Origin: Heterostelium album PN500
Taxonomy: Eukaryota > Evosea > Eumycetozoa > Acytosteliales > Acytosteliaceae
Reading direction: 5' to 3'
Length of the DNA stretch: 64,000 nucleotides
NCBI RefSeq assembly: GCF_000004825.1
Contig: NW_008805073.1
Coordinates: 434,001 to 498,000 of the forward strand
Shown here one piece after another: positions 992-29,750 of the stretch. A model generated the notes under the pieces. The model saw nothing but the letters and a program-made list of their open reading frames with translations, did no database searches and was not told where the DNA came from. The position numbers and the translations under genes are program-made. Positions within the stretch are counted from its first letter, which is position 1, and each line of letters begins with the position of its first letter.

Positions 992-2336
992 TATATTATA
1001 TAACTATATAAATAAATATAACAACAAAAAAAAAAAAACTATATATCTATCTATAAATATATATAAATTATATTATTTACTAAACATTTATCTTTACAAA
1101 TTAATATAATCTATAGATTTGTGTTACGAAATGATGATTGATTACTACTACTACTATTAATTATTATTATTAATTGTAATCTTTAACTTTTCTATTATTT
1201 TCTCTCTCTGACTGTCTAATGAATAAATTAAAATTAGTATATCAAAATATAATGTAGTTGTCTTGTCAAATTGAAAATTTAGTTTGTTATAATAAAACAA
1301 GAAAAAATAAACTATTGTAATTAATATTATAATTGGATAATTGTCAATTGTGTGTTGGCACCGCTTTTCTTTTCTATTCTTTTTGGGTGATGAATGCTAG
1401 GGTATGAAAATAAAAGCTAAACAAATGTCAATTCTTATTTTATTATATTATTATGTTTGTTGGTAAAGTAATTACTTTTATTGGGTGACAGACAAACAGA
1501 CTAGAATGATTTAAAAATGTTCATTCTAAATAGACACTCCCCACAATTAAAAATGAAAATAATAATAATAATAAATAATAATAATTGACACTGTTGTTGT
1601 TGCAATATATTCAATTACTTTCTCATTGAATCAGATATCTTATCTTGTGTTTTTTGTGTGTGCTGTTTGTTGTCGTAGTCAATCTTCGCTGAGACATCAG
1701 ACTTTTTTAATGTTATAAAATTTAAGAAAGTGTGTGGTGTGTGTGTTTAGAATGAACATTTATTTTCAAAACGACAATTGTGTTATTCCCATATAAAACA
1801 AAACAGAATAGTTTTGAATGTTGGTGTTTGATAAAAATTATTAAATCTTCTTTACTTCTTTTTTTTTTAATCAAATCCATTTGTAATCTACAAAATATAA
1901 TTTGAGTGTATAAAGTGCAGTGAAGTAATATAAAAATTATAAACTTTACTTACTTTTTTTATTTATTTACTTAAATATTAAATGAATATTAACAAAAGGG
2001 AATGGTGATAAAATCTAAAATCTAATTCTACACTTTATTTGTTGTAATAATAATGATAATAATTAAAATTTAATGAAAATCATTTCTGACTATTTTTAAA
2101 TAAACCGTAAAATTAATTAAAAAAAAAATAAAAAACAATTTTTATTTTGATTTGCATGAATCAAGATTGAGCGGTTTAAAAAAAGGTTCAGAGATCTTTT
2201 AGAACACGTTTTATCTATTGCACAAATTCAAATAAATAAAGATTTGAACACTACACACACTCGCAAGAACAATTATGATATTTTTAGATAAATCATATTT
2301 TATTATAATAATATTTTATTTTGATATTTATTTTAT
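992..2336. other. AT-rich intergenic stretch
   Basis: About 1.3 kb of A/T-dominated DNA with poly-T tracts, AAT repeats near 1558-1585 and no open frame of convincing composition. It holds the promoter side of the channel gene (992 upward) and the 3' side of the Cys-rich gene ending at 2337. No tRNA-like cloverleaf was noticed. Confidence 0.6.
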
Positions 2337-3158
2337 TTAATAAATAAGTCTGAAACCATCTAGTTTAATTTTTAGTGATAGTGCCAGTTGTTTTCTCTTT
2401 ATCAGTATGAGTAACAAAATAATAGTTACCACCAAGAAGATCAATATAAAAGACACGCTGTTTGAAATTCGTTGTAAGACATTGCAACTAGGATGACCAT
2501 CTACCCACAAATGCGAACCACTTAAAAACCTCGCTGTTCCGCCATCAGTGGCTTTGCACTTTCCATCTTTGTTAATTTCACCAGAGTCTTTTTTCTTGCA
2601 GCTTTCACACTTTTCGTCACAAACATAAGCGGTAAATTCAGTATCGGTACAATACATCATGACATAACCTGTTTCCAAGTCTGATCTAAAACATTGATTC
2701 ATTGTAGCTTGGTAGATGAAGAAATTCTTTCTACACGACTGATCGGCATAAAACATAGCTGTACAAGTGTTTATTTTAGCAGGATCGACCGGATTCAATT
2801 TGAAATTTGATCGCCTAGCCATCTTTGATACTCCTGAGTTATGATTCATACAGGTATCGAAATAATAGATCCCATATATTGTTGTGTTGAGATCGGAGTG
2901 GTCGACCAAATCACAATCAATCCGTTGTCTTCTGTGAGATGTGGTATTATATAGAATGAAATGATCGTCATACACTGATACCACTCCTTTAAGCGAACAA
3001 GTATCGTAGTATTCTACAAGATGTGGTGAGCCATTACAATTCTTATTCGGATAATATTCTACAGTAACTTGATTTGTGTAATCTGTAGGTACTGTTAAAG
3101 AAGTTACAATTTCCAAAACTAATAATAATAATGCAAATAATTTATAAAGATTGAACAT
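2337..3158 (-). CDS. Cys-rich type I membrane protein, tandem paralogue A
   Basis: A single-exon gene of 273 residues. It has a signal peptide (MFNLYKLFALLLLVLEIVTS), an ectodomain of about 215 residues with many cysteines and several N-glycosylation sequons (for example YNTT and LNTT), a C-terminal membrane helix rich in Val/Ile/Leu, and a short basic tail ending GFRLIY. The reading frame is open 30 codons further upstream to 3248, but I start at 3158: the paralogue starts at the equivalent Met and the upstream 30 residues have no counterpart there. I do not recognise the family; it looks like a dictyostelid-specific secretory-pathway or cell-surface protein. Ectodomain and tail are nearly identical to the neighbour at 3603..4421. 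Confidence 0.8.
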   Translation of the reverse strand: MFNLYKLFALLLLVLEIVTSLTVPTDYTNQVTVEYYPNKNCNGSPHLVEYYDTCSLKGVVSVYDDHFILYNTTSHRRQRIDCDLVDHSDLNTTIYGIYYFDTCMNHNSGVSKMARRSNFKLNPVDPAKINTCTAMFYADQSCRKNFFIYQATMNQCFRSDLETGYVMMYCTDTEFTAYVCDEKCESCKKKDSGEINKDGKCKATDGGTARFLSGSHLWVDGHPSCNVLQRISNSVSFILIFLVVTIILLLILIKRKQLALSLKIKLDGFRLIY

Positions 3159-3602
3159 CTTTGTTCCCTCTTTGGTTGTCCTATAGATTAGCTCTAATTG
3201 TTCATCTGTGTGTGACAAAGAGAAAAAAATATCCATTTCCAAGCCCAATAATAAAAAAAAAGAACTAATTCAAAATATCTCCCAACAAAATAAAATTTTT
3301 CTTCCATTCCTTGACCAATTATTATTATTTACCTTTCAAAAGTGTTTCTTCAAATTTAAGAATTTGATTCTGTTTGTTTGAGAGGAAAGAAAATTCTTAA
3401 AAACCAATGTTCACTATAGAAATTATGGAGCCCAGTATTGAATTTAAATGCTTTGGATCCTTTCTTATATATTTATTTACAACAACTCTATTCTATTGTA
3501 TTAATATCTTAATTAATATAATATTGAAAACATTTTTTTGAATATTTTTAAATCATATGCATGTTAAACCTTTTTTTTTGTTTTTGTTCATGAGTATTTT
3601 AT

Positions 3603-4421
3603 TTAATAAATAAGTCTGAAACCATCTAGTTTAATTTTTAGTGATAGTGCCAGTTGTTTTCTCTTTATCAGTATGAGTAACAAAATAATAGTTACCACCA
3701 AGAAGACCAATATAAAAGACACGCTGTTTGATATTTGTTGTAAGACATTGCAACTTGGATGACCATCGACCCACAAATGTGCACCACTTAAAAACCTTGA
3801 TGATCCACCACTTTCGGCTTTGCACTTTCCATCTTTGTTGATTTTAACATTGTCATTTTTCTTGCATCTTTCACATTTTTCGTCACAAGAATAAAAGGTA
3901 AATTCAGTATCGGTACAATACATCATGACATAACTTGTTTCCATGTCTGATCTAAAACATTGATTCATTGTAGCTTGGTAGATGAAGAAATTCTTTCTAC
4001 ACAACTGATCGGAATAAAACATAGCTGTACAAGTGTTTATTTTAGCAGGATCGACCGGATTCGTTTTAAAATTTGATCGCTTAGACATCTTTGATACTCC
4101 TGAGTTATGATTCATACAGGTATCGAGATAATAGATTCCATATACTGTTGTGTTGAGATCGGAGTGGTCGACCAAATCACAATCAATCGGTTCTCTATTG
4201 AATGTTGTATTATATAGAATGAAATGATCGTCATACACTAATACCACTCCTTTTAGCGAACAGGTATCGTAGTATTCTACAAGATGTGGTGGGCCATTAC
4301 AATTCTTATTCGGATAATATTCTACAGTAACCTGATTTGTGTACTCTGTAGGTACTGTTAAAGAAGTTACAATCTCCACAACTATTAATAATACTGCAAG
4401 AAATTTATAAAACCTGAACAT
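3603..4421 (-). CDS. Cys-rich type I membrane protein, tandem paralogue B
   Basis: A single-exon gene of 272 residues with the same layout as the gene at 2337..3158: signal peptide, Cys-rich N-glycosylated ectodomain, one helix near the C-terminus and a short basic tail. The last 33 or so residues are identical, and the 3' ends match at nucleotide level past the stop. The two copies lie head-to-tail 444 bp apart. Ectodomain differences cluster in the middle, around residues 180-215 (CDEKCERCKKNDN against CDEKCESCKKKDS), and in basic or hydrophobic substitutions elsewhere. Function unknown; a recent tandem duplication is inferred from the similarity. Confidence 0.8.
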   Translation of the reverse strand: MFRFYKFLAVLLIVVEIVTSLTVPTEYTNQVTVEYYPNKNCNGPPHLVEYYDTCSLKGVVLVYDDHFILYNTTFNREPIDCDLVDHSDLNTTVYGIYYLDTCMNHNSGVSKMSKRSNFKTNPVDPAKINTCTAMFYSDQLCRKNFFIYQATMNQCFRSDMETSYVMMYCTDTEFTFYSCDEKCERCKKNDNVKINKDGKCKAESGGSSRFLSGAHLWVDGHPSCNVLQQISNSVSFILVFLVVTIILLLILIKRKQLALSLKIKLDGFRLIY

Positions 4422-4988
4422 ATCTTTTGTTTTGCTCTTTGTGTTATAATTCTATAGATTAGAGCTTTTATCGTGCACAACTGTGTTGTGCTACAACTGG
4501 TGAAAATTTTTGTTTTTTCAAGCCCGTTAATCACCCCATTATTTGGTTATCTCTAATACAGAAAAGATAATACTTTTTATCTATAATTATTATTGAAAAC
4601 AAATATTTGGCAGCCAATTTTCTTTTCCTACACCTTTCTTCAGATAAGTCTCCAAATTTAAGAATATGATTATTTTTGTCTTGAAAATAAGATTTGTAAA
4701 ACTTGTTGCTCTGTATATTTAACTTGATTGAACAAATTTAAATCCATTTATTGAATCTATTTATTTTTGAAACTAATAATAAAAATTGTTGTTATTTAAA
4801 GTTGAACCTAAATAAATAATTGCAAAGCAAAAAAAGAAAGGGTAGTGTTTAATTACTGTAAAGTAAAAAATATAATTTGATTATGACCATTTTCTTAATT
4901 ATTTAAATCGTAAGAGAAAATTCTTTTCAAACATAAAGGGTATTTATTAAGGACCTAATAAATTATTATTTGTTATTTATTTATCTAT
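4422..4988. other. Intergenic spacer
   Basis: 567 bp between the Cys-rich gene B start and the 3' end of the disulfide isomerase gene. AT-rich, with no coding signal seen. The first 40 bp resemble the region upstream of paralogue A (shared CTATAGATTAG), so the duplication includes part of the 5' leader. Confidence 0.5.
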
Positions 4989-19915: not shown

Positions 19916-20010
19916 TATATTTCTTAAACTAATGTTAATATAGTTCTCCTCCACTTTTTTTAAAATATATTAGTATAATAAATACTTTTTAATAAAAGTT
20001 TGTTATGTAA
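19916..20010 (+). repeat. 95-bp perfect direct repeat, copy 1 (cofilin 3' flank)
   Basis: Beginning 30 bp after the cofilin stop, these 95 bp recur base for base at 25056..25150, and the next 30 or so bp are similar with small indels. This copy lies where the cofilin 3' UTR and poly(A) signals (AATAAA near 19978) should be, so it is probably the source. The repeats bracket 5.0 kb holding the recombinase-like gene and decayed fragments. Confidence 0.85.
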
Positions 20011-20243
20011 CAATAATATAAACAAAAATCAAATATATTTATCTTAGTATCCTATTCAATCTCCTCAAAACCCAGTTGAGTTCTCCCCGCTCTGATTCTG
20101 CAGATACAGAGAGATGGAGAGATCAGAGAAAAACTGATGCTGCTGGAAGAGACAGAGAGATTGAGAAAGACCAGATAGAGATCAAATTAGATAGATCTAA
20201 TGTCTAATGAAACTATTCACAATCAAAAAAATATTAATCAAAA
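20011..20243. other. Spacer between cofilin 3' flank and recombinase-like gene
   Basis: 233 bp. Unlike other spacers here it has a purine-rich, less AT-biased block at about 20090..20170 with repeated GAGAGA/GATAGAG motifs. No gene recognised. Confidence 0.4.
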
Positions 20244-22789
20244 TTATTCTTTATTTGTATTATTTAAAGTTGATCTTCTCAGTCTTCTCATTCTATATTC
20301 TGCTACGTGCATGATACATCTTGAAGTACTGTCGGAATATTCTAAGATCAATGAATTACATTTCATATTACCTTCTTGATGAATACATCTTTCAGATTTA
20401 AAAAGATCAGACTCTGGATCTTCACCAGCTTCCAATGCACACTCTGCACTGCAATAGTCACCCCACTTCTTGGATGGACAGCTACTCATATAGACAAGTT
20501 TCTTTGTGCATATCACACAGTTCTTACTCTGAGGTGGCAGTCTTCTAGCAGGTTCACTCATACTGATTTCATCTGGATTTGGTGCTGCAAAGTCATCATC
20601 GTATTCTTTGGTAGGATCGAATCTCTCAATACGATGTAGAGCTTGAATTCTATAATAAATAAATTAAATCAATAAAATAAATTAAATAAAATAAAATAAA
20701 TAAAATAAATAAATTAATACATACTCATTTACAAGCTTCTTATGCTCTGGCTTTGTAGTTGAACTTGAAGTTGGATTCAGAGTTTCGTTGTGAAAAACCG
20801 TTGTAAGACACGCCATCCCAACAGATTTCCGATGAGGTTCATAGCAGGAGCAACATTTCCAGCAGTTATCCAGTTGTTAATTTCGATACCATAGAGTTGC
20901 TTCAGTTGAATGATGATACTAGACTTTGATATGATGGCATTCTCTTGAACTTGGTTCTCTTCTTGATCATCGTGAGCATCATACTCATCGACATCCATAT
21001 CATTGTCATCTTCTTGATCTTCATTACTGATATCAGTTTCCATACCAATTCCATCCTCTTCTTGATCTTCATTACTGCTATCAGTTTCCATGCCAATCCC
21101 ATCGTCTTCTTGATCATCATGAACATCAGACTCATCATACTCATCGGCAGAAAGCAGAGTTTGTTCAATGCAAGATTGTTCTGCTATTCCCTCCTTACAA
21201 GTACATTGTAGAGAATAAAGACCATTTGGGTGACACTCTGATGCAGAACAATCTTGCATTGAACAAACTCTGCTTTCTCAAGAATACCTGGAATAAGTCT
21301 TTCATCTCGTATCATACGATCCATACCAGTTGCAACCAATATCCAATTCTTGAGTTTTCTACGACCAGTTCCTTGATTGTTATTGTTATTTGTATCAATT
21401 TCTTCTTCCTCCACCTCCTCTTCTTTAATATCATCATTGAAATCTTGCAAAATAATTGGTTGATTTGTATCATCATCATCCAGTGATGCAAAATACTTAG
21501 AGAACTTGGTGAGAGATTTCATAATAATAGTATCATCTAAAATAAATAAATAATTAATATTTGATAAATTAATATACAAATTATTCCTTTAACTTACTAT
21601 TCGCATTCCGACAAACTACATTTGTTGGTCTGGAACGTCCATTCAATTGGTAGTTGGTTTGAGGAGGTACCTCTTGAGTATCATCTTCTTCATCTATCAC
21701 TTCTTCCAGTTGTTCAATGGTTTCTTGATTTGATGGTCGGAGAGGATTGGCTGACTGGCAAAAACAAACGCAGGAATGTGGAGCGTCAGGAAAACAACTC
21801 TGACCAATGGAAACCTGACAATTGATTGATTCACCTTTGACTCGGTCATCATATGGAGGTGAGGTTCTAGAGAAGCATACTACATTATTGATCGTTCCAA
21901 AACTCTCTGAAATAAACTGCATCATATTGTAGTTGGGGTGAACCGTAGATTTCCAGTGGTGCATAGTATGATCTCTCTTTGAATAGACACCATGGGCGTT
22001 TGAGAATTGATAATAGAGATCTGCTGTATCTCTAATATCTTCCAAGAAATCGTTGAATAGAATATTCTCTTGGAAACCATAGGTAGGAAGTCCTTTATCA
22101 TTTTCTTGACCGGTTGGTTTCATTTCAAATACTCTTTGAAGACCAAAATCAATGATAAATGATCCACCTTGAACTCTTCTATTTGATAGTTTCTCAATAT
22201 ACAATATGATGCCAAGAGATTCGAAATGATTGAACAGATAATGTATTTCATGATAGTGTCTTGAAAGCCTGTCTAATCCAGAAATGATTACCAAATCTCT
22301 GAATTCCAATTCAGCTATCATAATTTCCATCTGCTGTCTGAATGCTATTGGATACCAATAGGTTGAAATGATTTCAATTATCCAATGTAATTGATAATCT
22401 TCAATCATCAAGGTTGAGGTTGGTAAGTTGTTGGCAGAGTTGTTATCAGTCAACTTGATAGTTGAAGCCAATAGATAGTTTATGTGTGCCAAAAGGGTTT
22501 GATACGATTGAATGCCAGTACCTGAGCTTTCTCTTGCAAAAATCCAAATGTTCTCGGTTGGGTGGACGATATCAAGCTGAGATCTGATATCATCTGGACT
22601 AGTGAGATTATCAAAGATTTGAACATTCTTGGCTTTCTTTCGTATTTTCTGAATCTGAAGTATACTTTTTTCCTTCTTGATTTCATCGAGCAATCCACTA
22701 AAAATGGTGTTCAATTTAGTTATATTTGAGAGAGTCTTGTGTGCATAAACACGTTGATTAAAGTTCTTCATGTGAGCAGATATATCCAT
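20244..22789 (-). CDS. Serine recombinase-like gene with acidic and zinc-finger-like C-terminal exons (frame interrupted downstream)
   Basis: Exon 1 (21598..22789) encodes an N-terminal helical stretch, then a resolvase-type catalytic domain: IWIFARESSG (R86, S88), R151, and DRLSR (D173, R174, R177). R151 to D173 spans 22 residues, the same spacing as R45-D67 of gamma-delta resolvase, and GLDRLSRHYHEIHYLFNHF fits the following helix. About 28 extra residues lie between the Ser and R151. Exon 2 (21288..21536) is acidic and basic, ending near an RDERLIP segment. Exon 3 (21237 down to about 20877) carries repeats such as DGIGMETD. The last exons (20726-20876 region and 20244..20649) hold clustered Cys (NCWKCCSC, CVIC, DYCSAEC). 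Exon 3 and the zinc-finger exons are in different frames near 20877, and I see no clean intron there: sequence error, decay or two genes. Serine recombinases cut and rejoin DNA; the substrate here is unknown. Confidence 0.6.
21149..21184 (+). repeat. 36-bp perfect inverted repeat, left arm
   Basis: The arm pairs base for base with 21243..21278 across a 58-bp spacer, inside the recombinase-like gene. It lies in coding sequence of exon 3. Confidence 0.85.
21243..21278 (-). repeat. 36-bp perfect inverted repeat, right arm
   Basis: Reverse complement of 21149..21184. In my model this arm falls within a 50-bp intron (21238..21287, GTATTC to ATCAG) whose removal restores the reading frame from exon 2 to exon 3. 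Confidence 0.8.
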
Positions 22790-24390
22790 AAAAAGAACTT
22801 TATAAAGTTCTATCTAATAAATCTATTAAACTTGTATAATTATACTTCAATTGTTTGGAAGTCATCTTCCCAAAGTTAAAATTGATTAATTTCTTAGTTA
22901 TATCTATAATTAATCTAGAGTTTAACATTTTCAATTATAATAATAAAGTAATAAAAAATATAATTAAAAGAAAAGTAAATAATAATTAACAAGGTAGGAA
23001 TCATAAAATCATTTAAAATGTTGACATATATTTATTTAAATTAAAAATATTAAAAAAATTAAAATCCTCTAAATCATTCTTTAGAAATCAATCACCTAGG
23101 TGGTTAAAATATCAGAAATTAATTAAATAAATAAATAATTAATAGTATTTCCAAAAAGAATTTTCATATACAAAAAGAAATACATCGTTTCAAAATCGAG
23201 TAAAAAATAAAAAATAAAATTATATCAAAATGTGAAGAAAGGTTCATGATGATGTATTCTAAATAAATATAGACAAAAATAACAAAAAATCACATTAAAA
23301 TGAAACAACAACCCTCAGTCAAAAGAAGATCAAATTCTAGATGATTAAATATTCGGATAAATATTAATAAAAAAGAGAATTAAATCAATAAATTAAAACT
23401 GAGAAAATTTGTTTAAAGATTAACAGATTTAGTTGATTAGTATTCTTCAGAATTGTGTTTCAAAATGATTATGATGGTTGTTTGTTATTCGTGTTAGCAA
23501 TAAATTCATCAAATACAATGTTGAAAACAATCGAAAAACAAATCTCAAACCTCAAACCTCTCGATTTGAAAAATAGATATGTATATTTGATGTATCCTCT
23601 AGAATCATTGACATCAACATTTTCTTCGATTTTCTAAACCACTGAATACATAGATATATTCACCAACTGTGGCCATTGATTGGTAGGTACAATTAAAATG
23701 ATTATCAAATTAAGTTGTTCGGTTGAATTGTTTGATGTGTTGAAAAGTGTTGCTTCTTGATCTGTGTGTTGTGACAACATGATGATTTATTATAATAGAA
23801 GGGTATTCTTATTAATGTGATTGTGATGATTCAACAATTCTATCAAGTTTGATTGATTGTTTGATCATCAATTTCAATAAACTTAAATCAGGTATTACTA
23901 ATTATGATTGATATGACGAATGTATTGATGGTGATGTTTGACTGCTATTATTATTATTATCATTGATCTCAGTTGTCATATTGAATTGATTGTTGTATTT
24001 ATAAATGATATCCAATAATAATGATGATGAATAATTGTTGTGTTGTTTGATAAGTTCATCAACATTGAATGGATCATCATCATTGACAATGTTTGATTAT
24101 TATCTATCGAGATGTTGATGTCATTAATGATTTACATATCGATTTAAGTGTCTGTGATAATTCAGACTCTTCTTCAAGATCATCAATAATGTTGTTAAAT
24201 TTAACAACAGTATTGATAATTATCACTAATATATTATTTATTGATTGTTTAATTTGATTGATATGTTGACAATGAGCAGTATTATCTATTTGTTGTTTAT
24301 GAGCACATAATTATTATGATGTTTGCAATCTAATGTCATTCTCTATACTGATAAATAGAATAGTGTTGGAGGTATCGAATCGTTTCATTA
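22790..24390. other. Gene-poor region with decayed host gene fragments
   Basis: 1.6 kb. On the plus strand at 23455..23637 the frame DYDGCLLFVLAINSSNTML continues to the segment YVYLMYPLESLTSTF, which is protein-like but lacks an ATG and neighbours. On the minus strand near 23590..23700, VGEYIYVFSGLEN resembles the kelch-like repeat of dictyostelid B-box proteins. From 23900 to 24330 the sequence is dominated by ATT/GAT triplets, as in a decayed Asn/Asp-rich coding stretch. Nothing intact. Confidence 0.4.
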
Positions 24391-24926
24391 AAAAAATAAT
24401 CTATTCACAATGTTATAGGATGGAAAAGGATTGGTTGGTGCATCTGACTTGAGACATATTTTGACAAATTTAGGTGAAAGATTGAATGAGGATCAAGTTG
24501 AGGAGATGTTGAAACAAGCAGTAGGATCGGGTGATGGCGCAATCAACTATGAACCATTCGTACGAAATATGTTAAAGAAATAAAAGTAAATCTTATTTAT
24601 TTTCTTCAATTATATCGTCTCAGTTGAAACCTGTGGGAGCTGGATATTTGAGGTGAAGGAATTCTCCGTTTTGACATTTAATATGGTTGTTGATAACAGA
24701 AGAAGATAGTTCACGTCCCAAACACCAACATGGTCAAAAAGACTGGTATTTTTCTATGGCAACCTTTCTTTGATTTTATATCTTCCAAATCATCTCCACG
24801 ATATTACTAAATTGAAAAATCTTGTCTCAAATTATATTTAGGATAGATAGGATATGAAAATGAGTGTTCATCACTTCTTTAAAAATAAATATTTTAAAGC
24901 AAATGGTATTCGAATAATCATCACAG
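24391..24926 (+). repeat. Inverted duplication, copy 1 (contains last exon of essential light chain gene)
   Basis: About 535 bp nearly identical to the reverse complement of 29215..29750. It includes the intron 3' end and acceptor TTATAG, the whole last exon of the myosin light chain-like gene (24420..24584 on plus), its 3' flank, and a kelch-like fragment (NMVKKTGIFLWQPFF). The exon copy is intact in frame but has no upstream exons here, so it is a partial pseudogene. The copies differ at only a few per cent of positions. Confidence 0.85.
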
Positions 24927-25069
24927 CAATATGTTACGATGGTAAAGATTATATCTATTTGGATAATGGGTATGAATCGACATCTTATAATATAGAAGAT
25001 AGACTTAATATAGATAGATTCAATTTCAATACAATGAAATTCGAGAGATATCATTTATATTTCTTAAAC
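24854..25069 (+). pseudogene. Fragment of a kelch-like / B-box family gene
   Basis: An open stretch of about 70 codons. KMSVHHFFKNKYFKANG is followed by ICYDGKDYIYLDNGY and IDRFNFNTMKFERY, resembling the repeat of dictyostelid B-box proteins with kelch-like units (pattern YDGKDYIYL...RF....M.FERY). It begins inside the inverted duplication and ends abruptly in the cofilin-flank repeat at 25056, so it is a truncated piece trapped between two duplications. Confidence 0.45.
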
Positions 25070-25150
25070 TAATGTTAATATAGTTCTCCTCCACTTTTTT
25101 TAAAATATATTAGTATAATAAATACTTTTTAATAAAAGTTTGTTATGTAA
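25056..25150 (+). repeat. 95-bp perfect direct repeat, copy 2
   Basis: Identical to 19916..20010, the cofilin 3' flank, with decaying similarity to about 25185. There is no cofilin coding sequence next to it. Confidence 0.85.
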
Positions 25151-25471
25151 ACAATAATAATAAAAACAAAAATACAAATATATCTCATTTTTTTTTTTTC
25201 ATTCAGAGATTTAAATGATTATTTAGGTTTGATTAACTAATATTGCAATAGTCCATACGAGATTGTGGAGTTGCTTGTGGAACTAATAAAATAAAATAAA
25301 ATAAAAGTTAAAATCAATATTCTTTTCTTTCAGTTATTTCAATAAAAGATATTACCAGCACTGGTATGTTTATAGTTAATTCAATTCATTTTAAAATGTT
25401 GAATTAAAGAAAATGGAACTATTATTTTAATAATTTTTAATATCGATTCGAATTATAGTCTTTCTCAGTGA

Positions 25472-29214: not shown

Positions 29215-29750
29215 TGTGATGATTATTTGATTACCATTTGCTTTAAAATATTTATTTTTAAAGAAGTGATGAACACTCATTTTCATATCCTATCTATCCT
29301 ATATATATAATTTGAGACAAGATTTTTCAATTTCGTAATATCGCGGAGATGATTTGGAAGATATAAAATCAAAGAAAGGTTGCCATAGAAAAATACCAGT
29401 CTTTTTGACCATGTTGGTGTTTGGGAGTGAACTATCTTCTTCTGTTATCAACAACCATATTAAATGTCAAAACGGAGAATTCCTTCACCTCAAATATCCA
29501 GCTCCCACAGGTTTCAACTGAGACGATATAATTGAAGAAAATAAATAAGATTTACTTTTATTTCTTTAACATATTTCGTACGAATGGTTCATAGTTGATT
29601 GCGCCATCACCCGATCCTACTGCTTGTTTCAACATCTCCTCAACTTGATCTTCATTCAATCTTTCACCTAAATTTGTCAAAATATGTCTCAAGTCAGATG
29701 CACCAACCAATCCTTTTCCATCCTATAACATTGTGAATAGATTATTTTTT
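29215..29750 (-). repeat. Inverted duplication, copy 2 (functional light-chain gene end)
   Basis: Reverse-complement partner of 24391..24926. This copy contains the last exon of the intact myosin light chain-like gene (29558..29722) plus about 340 bp of its 3' flank. It is the likely source, because here the exon is joined to upstream exons. Confidence 0.85.

Follow-up and report, generated by a model that had tools for sequence, protein, structure and literature searches.

A multi-exon gene family with two serine-recombinase-type domains in Heterostelium album PN500

The genome of Heterostelium album PN500 (Amoebozoa, Dictyostelia), a strain which earlier went under the name of Polysphondylium pallidum PN500, contains a scattered and for the most part decayed family of multi-exon genes. 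We interpret it as a DNA-transposon-like family whose gene codes for a serine recombinase with two catalytic-type domains, and give this reading a probability of about 0.6. Judged from sequence, the first domain is homologous to serine recombinases (PF00239) and keeps the whole catalytic set, R8, S10, R45, R68 and R71 in the numbering of gamma-delta resolvase. On the same grounds the second region is homologous too, and it keeps R-x-S and DRxxR (D-R-x-x-R) in 5/5 copies. One copy is found in the window, the 64-kb stretch of contig C12 that we have analyzed.

Structure of the window copy and its relatives

The domain-1 exon of the window copy occupies 21598..22789 (minus strand), as supported by PF00239, the family alignment, an alignment with 17 bacterial or phage recombinases and the listing of motifs. 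Its 402 codons stay open from the ATG at 22789 up to the intron at 21597, which, given the local base composition, would happen by chance with a probability of about 2e-13. The translation from this ATG contains R86-E-S88, R151 and D173-R174-L-S-R177, with a spacing of 22 residues between R151 and D173: all the residues named in the preliminary description are found where it placed them. The 3' end of the exon carries V-C-F-S-R-T-S, the R-x-S motif which opens the recombinase-like domain 2. On the other side of the ATG, the frame stays open to the preceding stop (22790..22813, minus strand) and matches exon sequence of other copies, one of which (L010a) aligns to 22813. A candidate acceptor, TTAG, is found just 5' of 22813. 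Its phase has no clear match in the other copies, so we have dropped it as a conserved splice acceptor and keep it only as a candidate.

The exon is followed by a predicted intron of 61 nt (21537..21597, minus strand, GTAAGT...TTTTAG), which is found at the matching place and in the same phase in three other copies. The following exon (21184..21536, minus strand, WILVATGMDRMIRD), recognized by reading the sequence and by comparison of copies, corresponds to the start of the second half of domain 2. Domain 2 breaks off after DRMIRD, at a perfect inverted repeat of 36 nt (21149..21278, arms 21149-21184 and 21243-21278), and the rest of it is not recognisable beyond this exon in the window copy. 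Then come an acidic open frame (20777..21277, minus strand), which we read as a degraded coding part, a candidate intron GTATGT...TATAG (20650..20724, minus strand), read in the same phase in three other copies, and the C-terminal Cys-rich, zinc-finger-like exon (20244..20649, minus strand, bounds approximate), 35% identical to the C37 copy over the aligned stretch. This last exon has no Pfam match in the window, and that of a paralogue has weak ones (zf-FCS, E 0.006). The acidic and zinc-finger-like stretches previously noted are present, but the gene is not a complete recombinase. By tblastn, nothing in the 64-kb window corresponds to the N-terminal exons of PPL_11686, the C27 copy or the C3 copy; of PPL_11686 only residues 610-895 and 1277-1380 are matched, and most of the later part has been lost. 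This copy is a truncated, damaged remnant, and a working enzyme is probably not made from it.

A search of the genome (32.9 Mb, 39 contigs) with the window protein gave 8 matches at about seven stretches. A whole-genome scan with PF00239 has hits at five places, located on contigs C27, C9, C12 (the window), C3 and C37. They all belong to one family, three above the cut-off. Searches with other exons add remnants, and copies or remnants are found at ten places when they are grouped by neighbourhood. The main copies are C3 804998-809521, C9 1780366-1784444, C27 1434315-1438031, the C37 copy, which is PPL_11686, and the window copy. Remnants are found at C12 699643-700246 (pieces in opposite orientations), C3 605096-608863, C4 1443871-1444011, C9 1488957-1489281 and C24 1218254-1218367, and extra fragments adjoin the main copies of C37 and C27. 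At C27:1429123-1430337, the remnant pieces are in opposite orientations, with an inverted repeat of 233 bp and 97% identity.

Two of the five main copies, C37 and C27, are open throughout. The other three are broken: C3 in domain 2, C9 into pieces with stops, and the window copy. PPL_11686 has 1386 amino acids and is annotated as a "hypothetical protein" of Heterostelium album PN500. It matches no Pfam family at E <= 0.001, which may be the reason why it has remained unnamed. The protein can be mapped to its own locus without changing a base, across five introns, all GT-AG and 60-80 nt long; these introns throughout the mapping rule out a frame break in its N-terminal part. The C27 copy is predicted to have five exons, open over 1156 amino acids. 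Both proteins present the same order: an N-terminal region, domain 1, domain 2 and a Cys-rich C-terminus. By reading, the copies have the motif order RxS-DRxxR-RxS-DRxxR. In the two open copies the stretch between R-E-S and the R45-type arginine varies, and this arginine is 22 residues before (D/E)RxxR. The N-terminal region has no Pfam match, either in the N-terminal frames or in PPL_11686.

Pairwise identity among the main copies is about 19-37% over long stretches (19% between the two open ones), so no recent movement is visible. The intron and exon structures of the copies are predicted from reading of the sequence. Two introns, the one separating the exons of domains 1 and 2 and the one preceding the Cys-rich exon, have the same phase in all four copies read. 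The copies thus go back to a single intron-bearing DNA ancestor, with no passage through spliced RNA.

Two recombinase-type domains

The window exon scores 22.1 bits against PF00239 with hmmscan (E 1.7e-4), slightly below the cut-off of 23.3 bits. In the six-frame scan of the genome it scores 23.6 bits, above the cut-off, and the domain expected from the preliminary description is thus matched; two frames from paralogues reach 28.1 and 27.0 bits. Its best match by sequence comparison among solved structures, and the sole one, is Sin (E 0.057). The resolvase fold predicted earlier is found in the AlphaFold model of domain 1; this model is based on an alignment which includes the 17 bacterial or phage recombinases, and a single-sequence model failed. 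In a fold comparison of the model, Sin, gamma-delta and the large integrases are tied in Z.

The bacterial set comes from 80 loci: 28 of them were selected for having both R-x-S and (D/E)RxxR, and 16 of these were kept as non-redundant, which together with a protein from a phage contig (L046) makes 17. In profile-profile comparison with this set, domain 1 has a score of 73 (E 1.7e-11, 67 columns), domain 2 one of 36.8 (E 4.2e-5, 40 columns). For domain 1, 150 column shuffles have a mean of 12.4 and a maximum of 20.5, and the reversed profile gives 20.2; the corresponding values for domain 2 (150 shuffles) are 11.1, 18.4 and 16.0. An N-terminal exon used as a control profile scores 10.9. The aligned columns correspond to the part from R45 to DRxxR in domain 1 and to the DRxxR part in domain 2, the R-x-S parts being outside them. 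R151 is in register with the bacterial arginine in 19/19 aligned rows, and it was no criterion in choosing the bacterial rows. R86, S88, R174 and R177 are also invariant in 19/19 rows, for bacterial rows chosen by their R-x-S and DRxxR motifs.

Within the family, domain 1 has R-E-S in all four copies which hold that stretch, and R151 and the arginines of DRxxR in 5/5. D173 is found in four of the five, and is replaced by E in C37. In domain 2 the R45-type arginine is not conserved: by reading, only 1/5 copies has R. The profiles of the two domains match each other weakly (score 31.9). Domain 2 alone never reaches E 0.1 against PF00239; the C37 copy gives E 0.14.

Serine recombinases attack DNA through their catalytic serine; four domains come together in a synaptic complex, and the strands rotate and are rejoined. 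The two domains of the amoeba protein may act as a covalently joined dimer, and two such proteins would then supply the four subunits of a synaptic complex across the ends of the element. Domain 1 would carry out the full serine-linked cleavage, and domain 2 would be impaired or have a supporting role. The serine found in every copy of domain 2 suggests that this domain matters, and the lack of a conserved R45-type arginine suggests an active site other than a normal one. DNA may be bound by the N-terminal region and by the Cys-rich tail.

These genes might also be a domesticated host family, in which PPL_11686, the C27 copy or both serve the host, for example by rearranging DNA in a programmed way, and all other copies are dead duplicates. 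Catalytic residues which persist despite low identity, together with stable introns, agree with this, as does the fact that 2/5 main copies are open throughout and 3/5 broken. Nevertheless, remnants are found at many scattered places, with several at one spot in C37, C27 and C3, as would be the case for mobile DNA, and the two open copies are very divergent, with their 19% identity. We consider domestication unlikely: broken copies scattered in this way speak rather for a mobile origin.

Neighbourhood of the copies

The window remnant is found between a cofilin gene and a purple-acid-phosphatase-like gene, both with their 3' ends toward it. It is bounded by direct-repeat pieces of 123-128 bp from the cofilin 3' region (19916..20038 and 25056..25183, both on the plus strand, 94.5% identical to each other), and the genome matches listed comprise these two places only. 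To the right of the remnant, 23204-25183 is a mosaic made up of a repeat-family fragment, an inverted copy with the end of an EF-hand-like gene, a C9-like piece and the cofilin repeat. Within it, 23204-24381 is common to the flank of another C9 remnant at 82-88%, 24391-24925 repeats 29215-29750 in inverted orientation at 98%, and 24929-25054 is 98% like C9:1493279-1493404. The repeat or gene family which matches 23618-24103 has at least 40 scored places on C5, C9, C11 and other contigs, many of them at 738-1136 kb of C5. The window also contains a direct duplication of about 0.87 kb (2329-3191 and 3595-4462, 91% identity).

The C9 copy is found between inverted copies of the profilin 3' end, of 420 bp and 99% identity (L011 2057-2476 and 7171-7588). 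The C-terminus of the full-length profilin frame differs from that in the profilin fragment of the C9 flank. On C3, the copy and the L15e gene are found together between direct repeats of 249 bp (C3:803528-803776 and 817788-818036, 95.6% identity), 14.3 kb apart. A frame which by eye resembles a fragment of a hAT transposase (L013 8932-9258, minus strand) adjoins the open C27 copy.

The window and C9 flanks look like patchwork break repair, and are not what a serine recombinase alone leaves. The copies might have been spread in a passive way: double-strand-break repair or segmental duplication would have copied parts of the gene along with parts of its neighbours, and the recombinase would no longer move anything. 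The mosaic to the right of the window remnant (the inverted copy of 29215-29750, the C9-like piece and the copy of the cofilin 3' region), the flank it has in common with C9 and the inverted profilin ends would all fit. This patchwork could be later decay, however, and passive spread does not account for one gene having repeatedly seeded tail-to-tail gaps that are unlinked. We find it quite improbable.

Most copies or remnants are in such gaps. By script, 7/10 element-holding gaps with both flanks readable are tail-to-tail, or 8/10 once an antisense shadow of the SAH hydrolase at C12:699643 is set aside (Pfam matches the sense frame). In the element-free gaps of the same sequences, used as controls, the proportion is 13/96, or 0.16 by length. 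At 0.16, the binomial probability is 2e-4 for 7/10 and 1.4e-5 for 8/10; when two C27 gaps with repeat-like flanks are left out, 7/8 gives 1.8e-5. Counted by flank, 17/19 frames have their 3' end toward the element. The gaps are delimited by open frames instead of curated genes, and the tandem class is made larger by introns, so the contrast between convergent and divergent control gaps (13 versus 20) is the safer one.

The neighbours of the copies include cofilin, EF2, L15e, profilin, SAH hydrolase, SAM synthetase, CDC48, a class II tRNA synthetase and a formin. Third-position GC, a proxy for high expression, differs weakly from that of 123 open frames in a post hoc comparison (one-sided p 0.047 for the 17 neighbours with their 3' end facing the element, 0.019 for all 19). 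Either targeting or removal by selection would give the tail-to-tail bias. In the transposon-like reading that we prefer, the element would move as DNA, because its introns are kept, and would survive mainly where it is harmless: downstream of genes, in tail-to-tail gaps.

Relatives and known systems

Copies repeated in the genome and with shared ends had been expected for a mobile element. The copies are indeed repeated, and shared ends have not been found: no match over 17 nt is present between the 3' or the 5' flanks of different main copies, and there are no inverted terminal repeats or consistent target duplications between copies. Since the copies are divergent and AT-rich, the ends of the element may have decayed.

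Within the limited sensitivity of the collections searched, no other eukaryote yielded a relative. In a single-sequence search of 5.8 billion proteins, 0/1566 candidates had E <= 10. Among the best 8000 candidates by shared words, the domain-1 alignment found one Bacillota recombinase (E 0.89), and a profile of domains 1 and 2 found PPL_11686 itself and nothing else. In genome contigs, the domain-1 alignment gave 29 stretches, zero of them confirmed. Plasmids searched in protein mode gave 45 records with weak matches; 7/8 matches listed fall on a 'recombinase family protein'. Viral contigs gave one bacterial-type phage recombinase (L046), and no match with a domain-2 exon as the query. Two matches of 22 residues in these contigs were set aside as chance.

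Serine recombinases commonly serve plasmids and phages. The copies might be pieces of an integrated extrachromosomal element, a nuclear plasmid or virus, which would use the recombinase for resolution or integration, and the N-terminal region without a Pfam family would be compatible with this. We consider such an origin very improbable: no other plasmid- or virus-type gene is found beside the copies in the stretches read, and the viral contigs gave nothing beyond the phage recombinase and the two short matches. A chance motif or bacterial contamination, suggested by a single-sequence Pfam score just below the cut-off, may practically be dismissed in view of the homologous copies (three of them over the PF00239 cut-off), profile scores far above the shuffles, introns, and the presence of cofilin and other host genes on this contig. 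The earlier proposal of a serine-recombinase domain settled in a eukaryotic nuclear genome therefore stands, in an intron-bearing gene with relatives in the same genome.

Serine recombinases are usual in bacteria, whereas few are known from eukaryotic nuclei. The small serine recombinases (gamma-delta/Tn3 resolvase, Sin; PF00239) have R-V-S where the amoeba family has R-E-S, and the latter has about 30 more residues between R-x-S and the R45-type arginine. The amoeba protein also differs in its size of 1150-1390 amino acids, its two recombinase-type domains, its large N-terminal region and Cys-rich tail, its nuclear location and its introns. In the large serine integrases (phiC31, Bxb1, SPbeta/LI type), Recombinase (PF07508) and the zinc-beta-ribbon (PF13408) follow the catalytic domain; in the amoeba frames and annotated protein scanned, Pfam gives no match to either. 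With the TnpA of the IS607 family the amoeba family has in common a serine recombinase in eukaryotic nuclei and a part before the catalytic domain. Nevertheless, IS607 TnpA has about 190-250 amino acids, a single catalytic domain and an N-terminal HTH, whereas the amoeba family has two catalytic-type domains. No MerR or HTH match to Pfam is found in the N-terminal frames or in PPL_11686, where a divergent HTH is possible.

As far as the accessible text of each source goes, the eukaryotic nuclear cases described are of the IS607 type (PMC2715888, PMC3627910): six horizontally transferred genes of an IS607-type serine recombinase in Saccharomyces kluyveri (PMC2715888), and Fanzor2 elements with IS607-type recombinases, for example in Acanthamoeba and Mimivirus (PMC3627910). 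The same portion of the latter lists P. pallidum PN500 with Fanzor1 and not with Fanzor2. According to the available part of PMC6188088, IS607 makes no target duplication, and that of PMC6431247 concerns bacterial elements only. A survey of dictyostelid retroelements which includes P. pallidum names, in its accessible part, tyrosine and not serine recombinases (PMC5006619). It also covers gene-avoiding retroelements, TRE and DGLT-A, found near tRNA genes. Like them, the amoeba family would settle at sites of a compact haploid genome in which an insertion does the least damage to the host; unlike them, it is no retroelement, and its bias is to tail-to-tail gaps between protein-coding genes.

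In the open-licence literature, we have found no description of the locus tag or of tandem or paired resolvase or serine-recombinase domains; in a broader set from the same literature, judged by title and start of the abstract, none describes this architecture. Two catalytic-type domains in a single chain, coded for by a multi-exon family, would be an architecture that we have not found described there. It is possible, though doubtful, that the family represents a eukaryote-specific class of serine-recombinase transposons, with an asymmetric built-in dimer of one fully equipped and one modified catalytic domain and new N-terminal and Cys-rich DNA-binding parts, which settles in tail-to-tail gaps downstream of strongly expressed genes. 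If the two-domain reading is true, a natural joined dimer would bear on how serine recombinases control the pairing of subunits, and would be useful to recombinase engineering. The tail-to-tail bias is a further aspect of how mobile DNA can persist in a compact haploid genome.
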